Shown here piece after piece: positions 26,270-41,435 of a stretch of DNA of 64,000 bases (its first letter is position 1; every line of letters starts with the position of its first letter). The notes beneath the pieces are model-generated. The model was not told where the DNA came from, did no database searches, and saw only the letters and a program-made list of their open reading frames with translations. The stretch spans positions 1-64,000 of the forward strand of contig JAAWGR010000005.1 of the NCBI GenBank assembly GCA_022795445.1, read 5' to 3'. Both the position numbers and the translations under genes were made by a program. Source of the stretch: Oscillibacter sp. (GTDB taxonomy: Bacteria; Bacillota; Clostridia; Oscillospirales; Oscillospiraceae).

Positions 26270-28924
26270 TTATCCGTTGTTCTTCATCACCAGCTTGCGC
26301 ACAAGGTCTACCGGAATGATGGTGAACGCCATCACCAGCACGAAAATCCACTCGCTGGCGTTCAAGCCGTAGCAGCGAAGGATCACGCCGCCGCAGTACG
26401 TCATAATTACCTGTACAACCACAATCGCGCCCATAACCCGCAGAAAGCCGCGGTTACCGCCGAGGTTATCAAACAGGTTCAGTTGCTCCGTACGAGCGTT
26501 AAACGCATTGAAAACCGAAGTAAAAATAAAGAAAGCAAAGTAGCCAGTGAGGAGGTATGCCTCCGGATCCACTGGGCTGGTGCGGAAGAAGGAGCGGGCG
26601 AAAGGCGTAAGGATAAACACCAAACTCAATGCGAACGTCCAGCCTGCGCCGATCAGGATCGAGCTCCACATATAACGGCTGACAATGTGCTCATCCCGGC
26701 GCTTGGGCTTCTCCTCCATATAACGCTGGAGGGCCGGCTCACCGCCGAAAGCTAAGGCCGCCAAGGTATCCATAACCAAGTTAACCCACAAAATCTGCGT
26801 AATAGAGAGGGGATTTTCGATGCCCAGCAGGGGGGAAACGAAGGACACCAGCACGGCTGCGACATTGATGGTCAGCTGGAAGATGATGAACTTGCGGATA
26901 CTGTTGAAAATTGTGCGTCCGTAAAGGATGGCCCTCTCGATCGAATTAAAATTGTCGTCAAGGATGACGATTTCGCTGGCCTCCTTGGCAACTTCCGTAC
27001 CGCCGCCCATGGCAAAGCCTACATCTGCCCGCTTCAAAGCGGGAGAATCGTTCACACCGTCGCCAGTCATGCCGACCACTAGGTTCAGCTCCTGGGCAAC
27101 CCGCACAAAACGGCTCTTATCGCTGGGCAGCGCCCGAGCCACAACACGAATCGACGCCAGCTTCTGTTTCAGTTCTTCATCACTCAACTGCGCCAGCTCG
27201 TCCGAAGTCATTACAAGATCTGTCTCATTCTTCAAAAGCCCCGCTTCTTTGGCGATGGCCATAGCCGTATCCTTCCGGTCGCCAGTGATCATAACCACCT
27301 GCACGCCCGCACGCTGCACCTGGGCAATGGCTTCCACAGACTCTGGACGCACCTCGTCCCGGATGCCCACAACGCCCACAAGGGTCCACTCACCCTCGGG
27401 GAGCGCATTGTCCTCAAAGTTCCGGTCGCTGACTGCCAGAGCCAGCACACGGATGGCACGGCCTGCCAGCTCATCAATCTTCGCCTCGACATTCGAACCG
27501 CCGCTCTTAAACGGCTTGCGAGTGCCGTCAATGTCATAGTAAAAGCTGCACTTGCTCAAGATTTTCTCTGGCGCGCCCTTGATCAGTGAGAGGCTGTAAT
27601 CGCCCTCCACCCGGGCGACGGAGTACTTGTTCTGGCTGTTGAAGGGAATACTGCCCGTCACTTCTACTTTTGCGGCAGCATCCGCTGCGGCAAAGCTCAG
27701 AATCGCCCGCTCGGTTGCGTTGCCGCCCACGGCGCGGGCAGATGCGCCTTCGCCTGTAATCACAGCGCTGGTGTTATAGCGCACACCCAGGGACACCAAT
27801 CGTCCCAGCTCGCCGGGAATCTCGGCGCGGGTCTTATAGGCCCGGCCTTCCCCATCCACAAACGCGACAGCCTCCAGCTGTCCTTTTGTGATGGTGCCGG
27901 TCTTGTCGCTGAACAGGATGTTCAGGCTGCCGGCAGTTTCAATGCCGGAGACCTTGCGCACCAGCACGTTATCCTTGAGCATCTTGCCCATGTTCTGGGC
28001 GGAGACGATGGCGATCATCAGCGGCAGGCCCTCGGGTACCGCCATAACAATGATGATCACCGCCAGCATCACGGCTTCCACAAGGTTGTTGAGCATCTGC
28101 ATCCAACTGTGAAGCTCTACGGAAATGCTGAAGACAGGAAGGAACGAGATGGTGACAATGCGCTGGAACATGAACGCAACCGCAATGGCGATACCGCCGA
28201 TATACCCGAACTTGCTGATCTGCCCCGCCAGATGGCCCAGCTTGAGCTTGAGGGGGGTGTCACGGTCGTCATCCGCCTGCAGCTCGCTGGCGATCTGCCC
28301 ATAGACCGACTTGTCGCCAACGGTGGACACTTCCATCACAGCATTGCCGGAGCACACCACGGAACCGCGGAACACCTTATATGGGTTCAGGAAATCCATT
28401 GCCGCCTCCGTCTCCTGATAATCCGCAGGCATGACGTTCTTGGTGGCTTCCTTCGCCTCACCATTCAGCACAGACTGGTCAACCTGAATGGTTCCCTCTG
28501 CCAGAATACCATCAGCAGGAACCTTGTCGCCGGACTGGAGCAAAACCCAATCGCCAACCACAATGTCTTGGATGGCAATTTCCACCAGCTCATTATTCCG
28601 ATAAACTTTGCATTTGATCTGGGAAGCTTCCTCTTGAAGCTTTTGAAACGCGCTCTCGTTTTTATATTCAGAGAGTGTGGAAACAAACGTCGCCAGCAAT
28701 ACCGCCAGGGCAATACCGACCGATTCATACCATTCCGCTTGTCCCAAGAAGGCGAAAATCACGTTGATAATCAGGGCAACACAGAGAATTTTAATCATTG
28801 GGTCACCAAAGTTTCCCCGCAGTTTCTCCCAAAAACTCTCCGACGCCTGCTCTGTCAAGTGGTTGTCGCCATGCTGTTCCCTTGACGCACGGACTTGCTC
28901 GTCCGTCAGACCACGTGTATACAT
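26270..28924 (-). CDS. Calcium-transporting P-type ATPase, PMCA-like
   Basis: 884 residues from ATG 28924 after GGAAAGGAAG. The phosphorylation motif is [11 protein letters not shown]. Before it, the PEGLP segment in membrane helix 4 ([12 protein letters not shown]) is typical of Ca2+ pumps. Also present are the [19 protein letters not shown] hinge and a C-terminal block of about four to six helices. The N-terminus has a cation-transporter domain. It exports Ca2+ or a similar ion. In this operon it may set the calcium level sensed by the TerD proteins (inferred). Confidence 0.93.
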
Positions 28925-36075: not shown

Positions 36076-36265
36076 TATTTTTCCGGTGACAGCCCCATAT
36101 ATTTGGCACTTACATTTCTATATTCCACTGATCAACAGAAAGGTACATACCAACCTTCCGGAACCCACATATAAAACAAAAGCTCTCGCCTGAAAGGACA
36201 GCATGTGGTATACTATTCACAGCACACAGCAAACGCCAAGAGCCATAGAGAAAAGGAGCGGCAGT

Positions 36266-37717
36266 ATGCACAAAGGGATTAATCAAACTTTAGAGGAATT
36301 GTTTGCCCAAGTGGATTTTCGGGAAGTCTGCCAAAACCTTTACGACGGTATCCATATCGCAGACGGAGAAGGCCGCGTCCTTTTTATCAATGCGGCATAC
36401 ACCCGAACCACCGGCATCACGCCGGAGGAGATCTTGGGCCGGAAGGTAGCGGAAATTGAAGCGGAAGGAAAACTCTACAAAGGCTCTGTCACGTCTCGGG
36501 TAATCGCAACCAAGGCGCGGGCGGACTCTGTAGCTACTATCCATAAAATGAAAAAAGACGTTCTTGTTACTGGAATCCCGGTTTTCGATGCCGCTGGAAA
36601 CGTCAAAATGGTCGTTACCAACACACGGGATTTTCCAGAACTCAAGCATCTGGAACAGGAGCTGCTTGCATTGACGGAAGAACAGCGGAAAACAAAAGAA
36701 GAACTGGTTTTTCTTCGCCGCCAGCAGGCAGGAGGACAGCCGCTGATCTATCGCAGCGCCGCCATGCAGTCGGTTATGGAACTCATCCAAACCGTTGCCA
36801 AAACAGATGTTACGGTCCTCATTACCGGAGAATCCGGAACAGGAAAGGAACTTGTTGCAAATGAGCTCTATCAAAACAGCAGCCGCCGGGACAAGCCGTT
36901 CATCAAGGTGAATTGTGCGGCGATCCCATCCGATTTGCTGGAATCGGAACTGTTTGGCTATGAGGAAGGCGCATTCACCAGGGCGCGCCGGGAAGGACGG
37001 ACCGGCATGTTTGAACTGGCCAATACCGGAATGCTCCTCCTGGATGAAATCGGCGATATGCCGCTGGCCCTTCAAACCAAACTGCTGCGTGTACTTCAGC
37101 AGCGGGAACTTATGCGCATCGGCGGCACACGCGCCGTCAAGCTGGATGTTCGGCTCATTGCCTCCACTAACAAAGACCTGCGGGAGGAGGTCCGCCAGGG
37201 CCGCTTCCGGGAAGACCTGTACTACCGGCTGAACGTAATCCCCATTGAACTGAAGCCTCTGCGGGAACGCAAGGCGGATATCTCCTTTTTGGCAACCGAA
37301 TTTTTCTCCAAATTCTGCAAGAAATATGGGAAAACCATGCGCCTGAGCCCTGGCGGCATGGAATTGCTTCTGGAATATCCCTGGCCGGGGAATATCCGGG
37401 AACTAGAGAATCTGGTGGAACGCATTGTCGTCACCAATACTGGTGAAACCACCGTCAGCCACAGCCATATTTTCACGGCGCTGAACCTTGGCAAGGTACC
37501 TTTACAGCCGCATGGGACGGAGACGCACACACTCAAGGAACAGGTTGCGGTCTATGAACGGGAGATCATCCTCCGCTCCATTGAGAAGGCTGGTTCCATC
37601 CGCCGGGCTGCAAAGGCTTTGGGCGTGGACCATTCGACGCTTGTCAAGAAGTGCAAGCAATATGAAATGCTACCGGACAGCAAGAATGGTGAATTTTATC
37701 ACCAATACGGTGAATAA
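36266..37717 (+). CDS. Sigma-54-dependent activator with PAS, AAA+ and Fis domains
   Basis: 482 residues from ATG 36266 after AAAAGGAG. A PAS domain spans about 22-125. The AAA+ domain has Walker A GESGTGKE at 188-195, a GAFTRA motif at 235-240 in the sigma-54 contact loop where GAFTGA is usual, and Walker B LLLDEIGD at 257-264. A Fis-type helix-turn-helix ([20 protein letters not shown]) is at the C-terminus. The PAS likely senses a small molecule. Three dyads just beyond the gene and a -24/-12 promoter before the next operon make that operon its target. Confidence 0.93.
37687..37704. promoter_or_regulatory. Upstream activator dyad 1
   Basis: TGGTGA, six bases, TCACCA. It overlaps the last codons of the sigma-54 activator gene and is about 240 bases before the sigma-54 promoter. 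Confidence 0.65.
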
Positions 37718-37726
37718 AATCACCGT
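37707..37726. promoter_or_regulatory. Upstream activator dyad 2
   Basis: ACGGTGA, six bases, TCACCGT. It starts two bases after dyad 1. The GGTGA-N6-TCACC core is the same in all three. Confidence 0.7.
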
Positions 37727-37827
37727 TCAATTTGCAAGCTTGAGGTTTTAGAATTTATTTCTATTTTCCTCCGTTTTTTGCAATGTTTTCAACATTTTCG
37801 TCAAAAAGACATAGCAGCTTCCGTTTG

Positions 37828-37862
37828 CGAGCGGTGAATTATTTCACCGCTCGCGCCTTTTT
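37828..37862 (+). terminator. Activator dyad 3 doubling as an intrinsic terminator
   Basis: CGAGCGGTGAA, four bases, TTCACCGCTCG, a stem longer than the other dyads, then GCGCC and TTTTTT. The GGTGA-N6-TCACC core matches dyads 1 and 2, so it can be a binding site for the activator and also the terminator of its gene. Confidence 0.65.
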
Positions 37863-37935
37863 TCTTGGATTTCAGGAGTATGCTCAGCGGAATTTTCTGT
37901 ACTGCCACAACGGTTTCCCGTTCTTCCGCTCACAA

Positions 37936-37951
37936 TTGGCACAGTTTTTGC
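37936..37951 (+). promoter_or_regulatory. Sigma-54 (-24/-12) promoter of the beta-keto acid operon
   Basis: TTGGCACAGTTTTTGC: the GG and GC pairs are separated by ten bases, as required by RpoN. It is about 65 bases before the first gene of the operon. Dyads 1-3 lie roughly 85-250 bases upstream, a normal enhancer range. Confidence 0.88.
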
Positions 37952-38014
37952 TTCCAATTTACATATATGGCGCAATGATCACGGTCTTCAATTTTTTTAG
38001 AGAGGTGTGTTTCC

Positions 38015-38854
38015 ATGAAAAAGACAATCATCACTGTGGCAACGACCGGCGCTTGGCCTAAAAAGGAGAACAACCCCAATGTTCCTATGACCCCTTCCGA
38101 GATTGCCGACGACGTATATGCCTGCTGGAAAGTGGGCGCGGCGGTGGCCCATCTGCATATGCGCGACGATGCAGGCAACGGCACTATGAGTACGGAAAAA
38201 TTCCGCGAAACCGTCTCCCTCATACGGAAGCGCTATCCGGACTGCGATATCGTGCTGAACCTGACCACTTCCGGCGACCTGAACGCCACAGAGGAAACCC
38301 GTCAGGCACATTTAAAAGAACTGCGTCCGGAAATGGGTTCCTTTGACTGCGGTTCTATGAATTGGCTGCACTCCGGCCTGTTCCTGAATCCCCCCAAGTT
38401 CCTGGAGCAGTTGGGCGCGAATATGCAGGCATGGGGCGTCAAGCCCGAGATCGAAGCGTTTGACCCCGGCATGATCGCCAACGCCGCTTACTATCTCAAA
38501 AAAGGCGTTCTCAAGGCCCCCCTCCACTTCCAACTCTGTATGGGCTGTGCAAACGGCATCCCCGGCAGCATGAAGAACCTGGTGTTCATGAAGGAGACGA
38601 TGGATCAGCTTTGCCCGGGTTCTACCTGGAGCTGCTTCGGCGTGGGGCACTCCGCCATGGAAATGCTCTACGGTGCCGTCGCCATGGGCGGCCATGTGCG
38701 CGTGGGCATGGAGGACAACGTGATGTATGCCAAAGATCAGCTGGCGGAAAGCAATGTGCAGTTTGTTGAGCGGGCCGTGCGGGTGATCCGTGAGTTTGGC
38801 CGGGAGCCCGCTACCCCTGACGAGGCGCGTGAAATTCTGGGCCTGAAAAAATGA
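38015..38854 (+). CDS. Beta-keto acid cleavage enzyme (BKACE / 3-keto-5-aminohexanoate cleavage family)
   Basis: 279 residues. Metal-ligand His are in HLHMRDD (H46, H48) and at H212 in GVGHSAMEM; the GGHVRVGMEDN motif holds the acyl-binding Arg/Glu pair (R229, E233). The family adds acetyl-CoA to a beta-keto acid and splits it into acetoacetate and an acyl-CoA. Members act in lysine fermentation and carnitine breakdown; no lysine-fermentation genes are near, so the substrate is unknown. It is the first gene behind the sigma-54 promoter and overlaps the next start by the ATGA. Confidence 0.92.
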   Translation: MKKTIITVATTGAWPKKENNPNVPMTPSEIADDVYACWKVGAAVAHLHMRDDAGNGTMSTEKFRETVSLIRKRYPDCDIVLNLTTSGDLNATEETRQAHLKELRPEMGSFDCGSMNWLHSGLFLNPPKFLEQLGANMQAWGVKPEIEAFDPGMIANAAYYLKKGVLKAPLHFQLCMGCANGIPGSMKNLVFMKETMDQLCPGSTWSCFGVGHSAMEMLYGAVAMGGHVRVGMEDNVMYAKDQLAESNVQFVERAVRVIREFGREPATPDEAREILGLKK

Positions 38855-39045
38855 GCTGGGGCGTTTACTGGATGTTTTACCGCTGTCCGGTTTGTCAGAA
38901 AAAATTCAAATCCGGAGCCGATACCATTATCGAGCCATCCTTTGGCCGCTGCCCTCGCTGCCATGCCGAAGGGCAGCTGATTGGCGAGAGCGGGAAAAAT
39001 CCCCCAGAAGACCCAAACGCCTATGAGGATACGGCGGATTACTGA
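38851..39045 (+). CDS. Small C4 zinc-ribbon protein coupled to the BKACE gene
   Basis: 64 residues with CPVCQ and CPRCH, spaced like one zinc ribbon, then an acidic tail (PPEDPNAYEDTADY). The start overlaps the BKACE stop as ATGA, so its translation is coupled. A later ATG at 38872 is also possible. Function unknown; the coupling suggests a helper for the pathway. Confidence 0.65.
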   Translation: MSWGVYWMFYRCPVCQKKFKSGADTIIEPSFGRCPRCHAEGQLIGESGKNPPEDPNAYEDTADY

Positions 39046-39062
39046 AAAAGGAGTGAAACATC

Positions 39063-39992
39063 ATGAAAAACATCAAGTATATCCTGATCTGCGGCGCTGG
39101 CATGATGGGGAAGAATATCGCCTTTGTCATGGCATCCAATCCTGCGTATGAGGTTGGCGTTTACGATCTGTACGAAACGGACGTACACGGCGGCATCCGG
39201 AACAATACGAAACCGCTGGTGGAAAAGGGCGTGCTTTCAACCGAAGAGCTGGAGGGCCGTCTCTCCCGCATCTCTTTTACCACCGATATGGACAGCGAAC
39301 TGGTCAGCCGCGCCGACCTGGTGATCGAGGCTGTGTTTGAGGATATGAAGATCAAGCGGGAGACCTTCGCCAAGCTGGAGGCGTGCTGCCGGCCTGATAC
39401 CATCTTCTGCACCAATTCCTCCGTCATGAGTCCCAGCGAAATCTCCGCTGAACTCACCCACCGGGAGCGCTTTGTGGGCACCCACTTCTGGAATCCCGGC
39501 CATCTAATCCCTCTGGTGGAAGTGGTCAAGTCGGACGCTTCCAGCGATGAGACCGCCCAGACCGTTATGGAGGTGCTGGCCTCTGCCGGGAAAGAACCGG
39601 TACTGTGCCGGAAAGACGTTCCCGGATTCATTGCCAACCGGATGCAGCACGCTCTTTGGCGCGAAGCCATCTCCATCGTGGAACGGGGTATCGCAGATGC
39701 CGCTACGGTGGACAAGGCGGTGCGTTTCTCCTTCGGCCTGCGCCTGCCGCAGCTTGGCCCCCTGGAAAATGCCGATATGGTAGGAACCGATCTGACGTAC
39801 AACATCCATGATTACATCCTCAAGGACTTGGAGGATTCCCACACGCCCTCCCCGCTGCTGAAGCAGCTTCGGGATGAGGGGAAAATTGGCTTCAAGACCG
39901 GCGAAGGCTTCCAGGCCTGGAAGCCGGAGGCTGCAAAAAAGTCGGCAGACGATCTGAACGAATACTTGGTTCGGATGCTTTACGGAAAATAA
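39063..39992 (+). CDS. 3-hydroxyacyl-CoA dehydrogenase-family oxidoreductase
   Basis: 309 residues. The NAD site is GAGMMG at 11-16, and the catalytic His is H141 in VGTHFWNPGHLIPLVEVV, where hydroxyacyl-CoA dehydrogenases have HFFNP. It is short like 3-hydroxybutyryl-CoA and carnitine dehydrogenases. With BKACE in the same operon, a likely job is oxidising a 3-hydroxy acid or its CoA ester to the 3-keto form. The carnitine pathway of other bacteria pairs these two enzyme types in the same way. Directly follows the zinc-ribbon gene. Confidence 0.88.
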   Translation: MKNIKYILICGAGMMGKNIAFVMASNPAYEVGVYDLYETDVHGGIRNNTKPLVEKGVLSTEELEGRLSRISFTTDMDSELVSRADLVIEAVFEDMKIKRETFAKLEACCRPDTIFCTNSSVMSPSEISAELTHRERFVGTHFWNPGHLIPLVEVVKSDASSDETAQTVMEVLASAGKEPVLCRKDVPGFIANRMQHALWREAISIVERGIADAATVDKAVRFSFGLRLPQLGPLENADMVGTDLTYNIHDYILKDLEDSHTPSPLLKQLRDEGKIGFKTGEGFQAWKPEAAKKSADDLNEYLVRMLYGK

Positions 39993-40046
39993 TGGGAACC
40001 GCCGCCTGCGGCGCGTTTCAGTATGAGAAAGAAAGGAAAATGATTG

Positions 40047-41435
40047 ATGTCTGAACATACGGAAAAGAGTAATGGCACGTTTCTTTGGCGCATCAGCAAG
40101 AAATTCAGCTTTGCAGCCGAGAAAATCATTCCGGATTCCTTCGTATTCTGCGTCATTTTGATGCTGGTCGTGTTTGTATGCTCTCTGTTGTGCGGCAAAG
40201 GCCCCCTGGAGCTGCTGAATGCTTGGTGGGATGGCCTGAGCAGCCAATTCACTCTGGCTTTCCAGATGGGCCTGATGGTCATCGTGTGCGCGACCTGCGC
40301 CCGCAGTCCGCAGGTCGCCAAGCTGCTGAATAAACTGGCAAGCCTGGTGCATACCCGCACTGCCGCGCTGATTGTTTTGATGCTCTTCGGCTATGTGACT
40401 TCCATGCTGAACTGGGCATTCTGCACCATTGTTACCCCTATCCTTGCCATGCACATGGCAAAACGCATCAAGGGACTCCACTTCCCCATGATGGTGGCTG
40501 GCGGATACTCCTGCATGATTTTGGGCCAATGTCTCGGGCCCTCTGCAACGCTGTACTCCAACCTGGCTACGGAGGGCAGTTCTTATGCCGAAATCGTTGG
40601 TCAGAGCATGAGCGTGGCAGATACCTGCTATAACCCTATGAATATCATCCTTTTCACCATCCTGGCAATTGTGTTTGTCCTCCTGGTCCTCTTTACCCAG
40701 CCTGGCCAGAATGAACTGGTGGAACTGGGCGATATCGCCACTGAGGCGGATGTAGTCCCCGCCTCCTACAAAAACACAGACCCCGCTGTCACGGCCGCGG
40801 AAAAGATGAACACCTTCAAGCCGTTCATGTGGATTACCGGCGCGTTCATCTTTATCTACATTATCACCTCTGTTGTGCAAAAGGGCCTGCTGGGCGCGCT
40901 GAACATGAACCTGGTGATCTTCATGTTCGTTGGCATCAACTGCTTCCTGTTCCCCGAGCCGCACCAATGGATTGAAGCGCATAAAAATAGTATGCATTTG
41001 GCAACGGACGTTATGCTCCAGTTCCCCTTCTATGGGGCTATCATGGGCATGATGTACCTGGAAGGCGGTCTCGGTTCTGTGCTGATTGGCGCAATCGTCT
41101 CCGTGTCCAACGCCCAAACTCTGCCGATTTTCTCCTTCCTCTCCGCCTGTGTTACGAATCTGTTCATTCCTTCCCAAGGCGGACAGTTCACCGTTCAGGG
41201 TCCGCTGATCGTCGAAGCAGCAAAGGCCATCCCTGGTGCAAATCTGGTCAACTGCCTGAATGCCTTTGTTTATGGAGACGAATGCACCAACCTTCTCCAG
41301 CCTCTGTACGTCATCCCTGCTCTGTCGGTAGTGGGAATGAAACTGAAAGATGTATGGGGCTTTATGGCCTTTATCTGTGTGTTCTGGGCCATCATCGTCT
41401 GTGGAGGACTTTATTTCATCCCAATGTTCGTGTAA
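40047..41435 (+). CDS. AtoE-like short-chain fatty acid carrier
   Basis: 462 residues with about ten hydrophobic segments. Matches the AtoE/TIGR00366 family: FVFCVILMLVVFVCSLLCGK near the start, then NWAFCTIVTPILAMHMAKRI, and later SQGGQFTVQGPLIVEAA. These carriers move short-chain fatty or hydroxy acids with protons. In this operon it probably imports the substrate or exports acetoacetate. ATG 40047 is used; GAAAGGAAAA lies upstream. Terminator at 41479. Confidence 0.9.
   Translation: MSEHTEKSNGTFLWRISKKFSFAAEKIIPDSFVFCVILMLVVFVCSLLCGKGPLELLNAWWDGLSSQFTLAFQMGLMVIVCATCARSPQVAKLLNKLASLVHTRTAALIVLMLFGYVTSMLNWAFCTIVTPILAMHMAKRIKGLHFPMMVAGGYSCMILGQCLGPSATLYSNLATEGSSYAEIVGQSMSVADTCYNPMNIILFTILAIVFVLLVLFTQPGQNELVELGDIATEADVVPASYKNTDPAVTAAEKMNTFKPFMWITGAFIFIYIITSVVQKGLLGALNMNLVIFMFVGINCFLFPEPHQWIEAHKNSMHLATDVMLQFPFYGAIMGMMYLEGGLGSVLIGAIVSVSNAQTLPIFSFLSACVTNLFIPSQGGQFTVQGPLIVEAAKAIPGANLVNCLNAFVYGDECTNLLQPLYVIPALSVVGMKLKDVWGFMAFICVFWAIIVCGGLYFIPMFV

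Follow-up and report, generated by a model that had tools for sequence, protein, structure and literature searches.

The 64,000-nucleotide stretch of Oscillibacter sp. DNA analysed here (the window; positions 1 to 64,000 of contig JAAWGR010000005.1, assembly GCA_022795445.1) contains, between positions 36,266 and 41,435, a gene for a sigma-54-dependent activator followed by an operon of four genes, which encode a BKACE-family enzyme, a 64-residue zinc-ribbon protein, a dehydrogenase and a carrier of the short-chain fatty acid (SCFA) family. This operon probably represents the lower half of the anaerobic phloroglucinol pathway, held as a separately controlled unit, a reading to which a rough probability of 0.82 is assigned. 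Under this reading the dehydrogenase would be TfD and the BKACE would be TAL, because the gene neighbours of 80 close relatives, the co-occurrence of the genes among genomes, the phylogenetic trees and the functional residues all point to this pair. The same evidence speaks against the original prediction that the operon serves a new pathway for a 3-hydroxy acid yet to be named. While the enzyme pair and the pathway are known, the arrangement, in which the lower half forms a separately regulated unit, is new.

Gene content of the locus

The locus is made up of the following features:

36266..37717, + strand: PAS/AAA+/HTH sigma-54-dependent activator, 483 residues (Pfam PF00989, PF00158, PF25601, PF18024)
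37688..37703, no strand: dyad 1, candidate activator site within the 3' end of the activator gene
37709..37724, no strand: dyad 2, candidate activator site across the activator stop codon, 21 bp from dyad 1
37826..37855, + strand: terminator-like hairpin 3' of the activator gene, 13 pairs and a T-rich tail
37833..37848, no strand: dyad 3, candidate activator site, exact GGTGAA-N4-TTCACC, within the hairpin stem
37937..37952, + strand: -24/-12 sigma-54 promoter TGGCACAGTTTTTGCT (pattern match)
38015..38854, + strand: BKACE-family enzyme, best read as triacetate (3,5-dioxohexanoate) acetoacetate-lyase, TAL (Pfam, neighbours, tree, residues)
38851..39045, + strand: 64-residue zinc-ribbon protein with two CxxC pairs, its start overlapping the BKACE stop by 4 nt
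39063..39992, + strand: 3-hydroxyacyl-CoA-dehydrogenase-family enzyme, best read as (S)-3-hydroxy-5-oxohexanoate dehydrogenase, TfD (Pfam, co-occurrence, tree, residues)
40047..41435, + strand: SCFA_trans (PF02667) carrier, putative importer of the ring-opened acid (Pfam, relatives' loci)

The claim that a PAS activator, three dyads, a perfect -24/-12 promoter and a four-gene operon lie together here as the parts of a complete sigma-54 circuit holds, as do its coordinates. The open reading frame of the activator begins at 36203 and ends at 37717, with the in-frame ATG at 36266 being the start previously taken, and the carrier begins at TTG 40044 or ATG 40047 and ends at 41435. The BKACE matches PF05853 with 358.7 bits (cut-off 24.8), the dehydrogenase PF02737 and PF00725, the activator PF00158 and a PAS family, and the carrier PF02667. 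The activator shares its PAS, AAA+ and HTH domains with sigma-54 activators of the PrdR/NtrC type, and PrdR is its best NCBIfam model, although it scores 404.5 bits against a cut-off of 795.

The loci of close relatives and the phloroglucinol cluster

Relatives of the window BKACE were taken as the best 80 of 246 confirmed in the genome collection, all of them 80-90% identical to it, with distant BKACEs outside the scope; together with L148 of genome G093, they provide 81 loci. Genes recurring around these BKACEs encode an HxlR regulator, a cupin, an SDR, a dehydrogenase, a 337-residue cyclase-family protein, a small zinc-ribbon protein and an MFS carrier or CoA-transferase (neighbours were clustered by a codon score, and clusters other than those matched to window genes were named by reading). 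This set is the phloroglucinol cluster of Clostridium scatologenes, which comprises the reductase PGR, the cyclohydrolase DPGC, the dehydrogenase TfD and the lyase TAL, and which has been reported in Flavonifractor plautii among others (Zhou et al., 2023; PMC10470551). In agreement, the cyclases read (L011, L013, L112 and L116) carry Trp-Pro-Tyr near the N-terminus, fitting the Trp20 and Tyr22 reported for CsDPGC, while the PGRs read show GR(S/N) where TR(S/N) was published (PMC10470551).

As would suit a TAL, 51 of the 81 loci have DPGC within 7 kb of the BKACE (full clusters), and 42 of these have PGR as well. A further 16 loci are of the same type as the window, 11 have no dehydrogenase near the BKACE and three have the dehydrogenase only. 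The window-type label denotes loci with no PGR or DPGC near the BKACE, a dehydrogenase near it, and a PAS/sigma-54 gene or SCFA carrier, so that adjacent upper-pathway genes are impossible in this class by definition and the activator and carrier counts among the three dehydrogenase-only loci are not independent of it. Counting the window, there are 17 window-type loci. Among the 45 full clusters with a near dehydrogenase, this enzyme is 72-85% identical to that of the window in 29 and 48-60% identical in 16.

The families and the key published residues of the dehydrogenase and BKACE in the C. scatologenes cluster match those of the window, whose relatives adjoin DPGC and PGR genes. In contrast to that cluster, the window operon lacks both PGR and DPGC, encodes an SCFA-family carrier rather than a 'major family transporter' (PMC10470551), and is accompanied by a PAS/sigma-54 activator with its own dyads. 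Relatives of the carrier (at least 50% identity) occur in 13 of the 16 other window-type loci and in none of the 51 full clusters; in one window-type locus, L014, an MFS carrier of the full-cluster kind takes its place. Relatives of the activator, 62-73% identical, are likewise found in 13 of the 16.

Two other arrangements were observed around these BKACEs. Six of the 11 loci without a near dehydrogenase (L052, L059, L060, L061, L074 and L078) encode a second cyclase-like protein 5' of the BKACE (259-287 residues; cut off in L060), and in L052, L061 and L078 a symporter, a CoA-transferase and a thiolase, named by reading, lie between the two. PF04199 was confirmed in the genomes of L052 and L078. 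This second cyclase could yield 3,5-dioxohexanoate directly by opening a ring or lactone, triacetic lactone and the keto form of phloroglucinol being examples of possible starting compounds. In L034 and L048, from Flavonifractor genomes, three BKACE-like genes form a run with a PAS/sigma-54 gene ahead and another dehydrogenase-like gene between the first two.

Phylogeny and functional residues

Trees of 65 dehydrogenases and 89 BKACEs were built by a quick method, with Shimodaira-Hasegawa-like approximate likelihood-ratio test values as the only support. In the dehydrogenase tree, window-type sequences are placed among those of full clusters, with six changes of label, at least five of which are forced by well supported branches. 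Here the window enzyme groups with those of L005, L012, L027 and L148 (support 91), and this group is nested among 24 sequences, 14 of them from full clusters (96). The BKACE tree requires nine label changes, of which at least two are forced by well supported branches, and the window enzyme falls in a set of ten (six window-type, four full-cluster; 89) within a clade of 82 (98). This clade excludes two further BKACEs of the same genome, encoded on C58 and C79, which are 57% and 50% identical to that of the window and were set aside as candidate duplicates of the system.

The window BKACE retains the zinc-binding and catalytic positions His46, His48, Glu233, Arg229, Asp234 and Glu147, and has Trp14 where Kce, the BKACE of lysine fermentation, has Glu14, a replacement described for CsTAL (PMC10470551). 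Tryptophan stands at this position in all 51 full-cluster and all 16 other window-type sequences, and the ten positions checked, which other than Glu14 we take to be the functional ones of Kce, are identical throughout both groups. In the dehydrogenase, Ser120, His141 and Asn192 are kept, while Val57 and Arg227 replace Lys56 and Asn221 of the CoA-using Hbd. Arg227 and the catalytic residues are invariant in all 44 full-cluster sequences aligned and all 16 other window-type sequences; four of the five functional positions are thus constant, and the fifth, that of Lys56, varies in both groups. Retention of Ser, His and Asn without the two CoA-contacting residues matches the pattern published for CsTfD, an enzyme acting on the free acid (PMC10470551).

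With Kce, the window BKACE has in common the family, the zinc ligands and several catalytic positions. It shares 40% identity with the Kce that the same genome encodes, lacks the Glu14 that binds the amino group, also differs at Ser82, Thr106 and Asn108 (in all, four of the ten positions checked), and has a dehydrogenase neighbour that is not Kdd. The statement that no lysine genes are near is correct locally, but contig C70 of the same genome carries a lysine-fermentation cluster with its own, Glu14-bearing Kce, beside genes that, from their reading frames, we take to be Kdd, KamA, KamD and KamE. Lysine genes therefore exist elsewhere in the genome, yet the window BKACE does not group with Kce; given the separate Kce on C70 and the missing Glu14, a lysine role for the window enzyme was rejected. 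The carnitine route presumably resembles the window in its dehydrogenase family and in the pairing of this enzyme with a BKACE. A carnitine role was also rejected, as the window dehydrogenase scores only 139 of 592 and 124 of 414 bits on the two carnitine dehydrogenase models, far under both cut-offs, with no search for further carnitine genes made. The window BKACE is best read, with good confidence, as TAL and the dehydrogenase as TfD, their activities on these acids being predicted.

Co-occurrence and the split pathway

Among 150 genomes from the family of the window, searched with cut-offs of E 1e-85 for the dehydrogenase, 1e-100 for DPGC and 1e-130 for the BKACE, the dehydrogenase was found in 29, DPGC in 27 and both in 26 (Fisher p 1e-24, with related genomes treated as independent). 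The exceptions are G000 (the genome of the window), G075 and G093, with the dehydrogenase and no DPGC match, and G038, with DPGC alone. As a DPGC fragment adjoins the BKACE of G075 at the edge of a contig, the remaining dehydrogenase-only cases are G000 and G093, both of which are window-type. The BKACE occurs in 25 of the 150, 21 of them with DPGC, the others being G000, G075, G093 and G165. One genome from the genus of the window, G101, is 98% complete and has no BKACE, dehydrogenase or DPGC at these cut-offs; the operon may thus be patchy within the genus.

The genomes of 15 of the 16 other window-type loci (L148 was added later) and four full-cluster controls were searched for DPGC and PGR elsewhere. 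Both were present in all four controls and in six of the 15 (G003, G004, G005, G008, G013 and G014), where DPGC is 85-88% and PGR 64-84% identical; the other nine have no close form of either. In each of the six, the second locus reads HxlR, then cupin-PGR-DPGC, with the cupin match reaching only 36% in two, and the 11-13 kb fetched around DPGC held no match to the dehydrogenase or BKACE, the dehydrogenase not being sought elsewhere in these genomes. No BKACE other than the window-type one exceeds 51% identity in G003, G004, G005 and G013, while G008 and G014 have a second at 80% and 79%. For these six genomes, the best reading of the window-type operon is that it supplies the lower half of phloroglucinol degradation.

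With the window included, a close DPGC is missing in 11 of 17 window-type genomes (10 of the 16 others). Another PF04199 protein, of 273-294 residues, is encoded in G007, G011, G012 and G015, and further ones in G000, G002 and G006, so that alternative ring-opening steps are possible in these seven. G093, which is 99% complete in seven contigs, has the operon and neither DPGC nor any PF04199 match (PGR was not sought there), and G001, G009 and G010 also have no PF04199 match. These four genomes make it unlikely that assembly gaps explain every case.

Regulatory sites

The promoter TGGCACAGTTTTTGCT is the sole exact match to TGGCACNNNNNTTGCW in the 64 kb, where 0.11 would be expected; at least one match arose in 10 of 100 shuffles. 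Besides the array of three dyads, the window has a fourth site within one mismatch of GGTGAA-N4-TTCACC, at 26321, against a mean of 0.1 in ten shuffles; the dyad shuffles, both of the window and of the loci, preserve letter content only. At the same tolerance the entire genome has 27 such places and three for a control pattern. Four of the 27 are in the window, three of them forming the array, and outside it no two sites lie less than 1 kb apart. No dyad was found in the stretches examined on C19, C58, C79, C70, C142 and C126 of the same genome, nor in the six upper-pathway (PGR-DPGC) stretches of the relatives.

Dyads and promoters played no part in assigning the window-type label. All 17 window-type loci have at least one dyad with up to one mismatch in the 420 bp 5' of the BKACE (three in ten loci, two in five and one in two; only 345 bp of upstream sequence is available for L076). 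None of the 65 other loci has one there, and only two dyads occur across their entire 857 kb, which is the fairer control since the BKACE is not the first gene of full clusters and the preceding stretch is mostly another gene. A -24/-12 site, counted in the window-type loci only, occurs within 160 bp 5' of the BKACE in 16 of the 17, window included, and is perfect in 15; L027 has one mismatch and L016 no site under the rule used. The conservation of dyads and promoter in window-type loci exceeds chance. Three of these loci, L007, L008 and L032, keep the dyads and the promoter and have no close PAS/sigma-54 gene.

A dyad also lies in the hairpin zone after the activator gene in 16 of the 17, with 6 to 20 perfect pairs (at least 12 in 11 loci), and at least five of the next ten bases are T in 12 loci. 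The position of dyad 3 within the terminator-like hairpin of the activator's own gene is possibly a link between activator binding and read-through.

Judged from sequence, the -24/-12 promoter, the candidate activator sites upstream of it and an activator with an AAA+ domain are consistent with a sigma-54-dependent operon. In the split genomes, different regulators seem to control the two halves of the pathway, one of the HxlR type for the upper half and a PAS/sigma-54 activator for the lower, an arrangement that fits the PAS activator as a sensor of the ring-opened acid.

Upper pathway steps in the genome of the window

The assembly of the window's genome measures 3.24 Mb in 151 contigs, is 92.9% complete and encodes four BKACEs. 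No close PGR was found in it, the best SDR being 30% identical, as opposed to the 64-84% seen in 10 of 19 other genomes. Nor was a close DPGC found: the best matches, at 39% and 52%, are to two pieces of a cyclase on C19 whose reading frame is interrupted in this assembly and which has W-P-S in place of the W-P-Y of the DPGCs read. The surrounding locus (L095, C19, 106-9804) comprises a thiolase, an MFS carrier, a PAS/sigma-54 gene, an iron alcohol dehydrogenase, the frame-broken DPGC-like cyclase and a TRAP carrier. Counterparts of its thiolase (82% identity), MFS carrier (85%) and regulator (69%) occur in L067, where a BKACE adjoins.

On C126, a PAS/sigma-54 gene stands with an SDR resembling 3-hydroxybutyrate dehydrogenase, a CoA-transferase pair, a dehydrogenase and a carrier, all named by reading. 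Subunit A of the transferase is 52% identical to CtfA, and subunit B was assigned by reading. These genes are a possible outlet for acetoacetate.

Proposed role and alternative explanations

In the proposed mechanism, the SCFA-family carrier would import a ring-opened C6 acid, most likely (S)-3-hydroxy-5-oxohexanoate or otherwise 3,5-dioxohexanoate. The dehydrogenase would oxidise (S)-3-hydroxy-5-oxohexanoate with NAD(P)+ to 3,5-dioxohexanoate (triacetate), which the BKACE would then convert with acetyl-CoA to acetoacetate and acetoacetyl-CoA. Both products could enter acetate and butyrate metabolism, acetoacetate perhaps through the C126 CoA-transferase pair. The PAS activator, acting on the GGTGAA-N4-TTCACC dyads, would turn on the -24/-12 promoter, probably upon sensing the acid. 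The general scheme of the original prediction, in which an imported 3-hydroxy acid is oxidised to a 3-keto acid and cleaved by BKACE with acetyl-CoA to acetoacetate and an acyl-CoA, appears right in form, with dehydrogenase residues that fit a free-acid enzyme. In place of an open-ended substrate search there is now one testable compound, and the breakdown of dietary polyphenols is linked to an enzyme whose nearest family model is one of lysine degradation.

Several observations weigh against this assignment. Trp14 is shared with the C58 and C79 paralogues and is thus not diagnostic of TAL by itself, and lysine occurs at the Lys56 position in two of the 44 full-cluster dehydrogenases aligned. 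The NCBIfam model NF053538, for 3,5-dioxohexanoate:acetyl-CoA acetone transferase, which may or may not cover the C. scatologenes enzyme, gives the window BKACE 207 bits against a cut-off of 430, less than the 295.9 bits of the lysine Kce model (cut-off 382). The 16 full-cluster dehydrogenases of only 48-60% identity add to these points, and likeness to the assayed CsTAL and CsTfD is judged from published descriptions of those enzymes. The specificity of carrier and sensor for the ring-opened acid and the binding of the dyads by the activator are predicted. Lastly, without a close PGR or DPGC in its genome, the upper steps are either missing from this organism or external to it.

If the operon is the TfD-TAL unit, there is an even chance that the acid comes from outside the cell, and the organism may plausibly take up an intermediate that other bacteria make. 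More tentatively, and with the odds slightly against, some gut Oscillospiraceae may use this unit to scavenge, sensing, importing and fermenting (S)-3-hydroxy-5-oxohexanoate or triacetate without attacking phloroglucinol itself. The acid would be released by degraders or derive from other polyketide-like compounds, and the ring would be consumed through a division of labour between species. Were uptake from outside true, a diffusible phloroglucinol intermediate would feed other gut bacteria, and genomes could be miscounted as phloroglucinol or lysine degraders. Among the matches listed from the open-licence literature, none was, by title or the start of its abstract, on a sigma-54-regulated or split phloroglucinol pathway or on uptake of 3-hydroxy-5-oxohexanoate. 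In the parts available of two articles, phloroglucinol breakdown is said to yield 3-hydroxy-5-oxohexanoate or its acid, which is not described there as cross-fed (PMC12652937; PMC5633678).

The organism could instead degrade phloroglucinol alone, its PGR and DPGC having been lost to incomplete assembly or replaced by distant enzymes such as the C19 cyclase. The six related genomes that hold both halves in split form would favour this, as would an assembly of 92.9% completeness in 151 contigs and the setting of the C19 cyclase, whose pieces resemble DPGC and lie beside an MFS carrier, a thiolase and a PAS/sigma-54 gene. The broken frame and W-P-S of that cyclase, the nine of 15 window-type genomes without close PGR and DPGC, and the absence of PF04199 matches from the nearly complete G093 and from G001, G009 and G010 make independent degradation rather unlikely.

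A shift in specificity towards another 3-hydroxy acid after the enzymes left the phloroglucinol cluster, closest to what was originally proposed, would account for the 11 of 17 genomes without a close DPGC and for a carrier family not seen in the 51 full clusters. On both trees, moreover, none of 500 shuffles clustered the window-type label as strongly as is observed, which indicates that the label is partly inherited, and some separate history is possible. The trees nevertheless show no single separate window-type clade, given the at least five dehydrogenase and two BKACE label changes forced by well supported branches; the ten BKACE positions and four of five dehydrogenase positions do not distinguish the groups, and the operon completes the split pathway in six genomes. 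A different substrate is therefore improbable. Least probable by far is the reverse course, in which acetoacetate and acetoacetyl-CoA would condense to 3,5-dioxohexanoate, and this acid, once reduced by NADH, would be exported to dispose of electrons. Both assayed relatives have been reported to catalyse the reverse reactions (PMC10470551) and the carrier family is named after short-chain fatty acids, but catabolism is favoured by control through a dedicated activator of the sensor type and by co-occurrence with a degradative pathway.

The zinc-ribbon protein and further BKACE loci

The 64-residue protein gave no match to Pfam or NCBIfam at E 0.001, and its comparison with PDB and Pfam returned only generic zinc-finger and zinc-ribbon matches, with no specific family. 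A protein of about 62-71 residues with two CxxC pairs lies directly 3' of the BKACE in 56 of the 81 loci, comprising 37 of 51 full clusters, 12 of 16 window-type loci, five of the 11 loci without a near dehydrogenase and two of the three with the dehydrogenase only; two of the 56 script-called starts (L020 and L058) look wrong. None of the 14 loci titled Flavonifractor was found to have it behind the BKACE, and PMC10470551 makes no mention, under the terms searched, of a small or zinc-binding protein in the cluster. The 4-nt overlap of its start with the BKACE stop recurs in 25 loci, and an alignment of the window protein with 35 of the 56 has ten invariant columns.

On C79, the BKACE lies near a PAS/sigma-54 gene. 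The C58 locus (L096, 2934-7839) combines its BKACE with a TRAP carrier and a different dehydrogenase, in which Tyr and Arg occupy the CoA-contact positions, and is possibly a second 3-hydroxy-acid unit.

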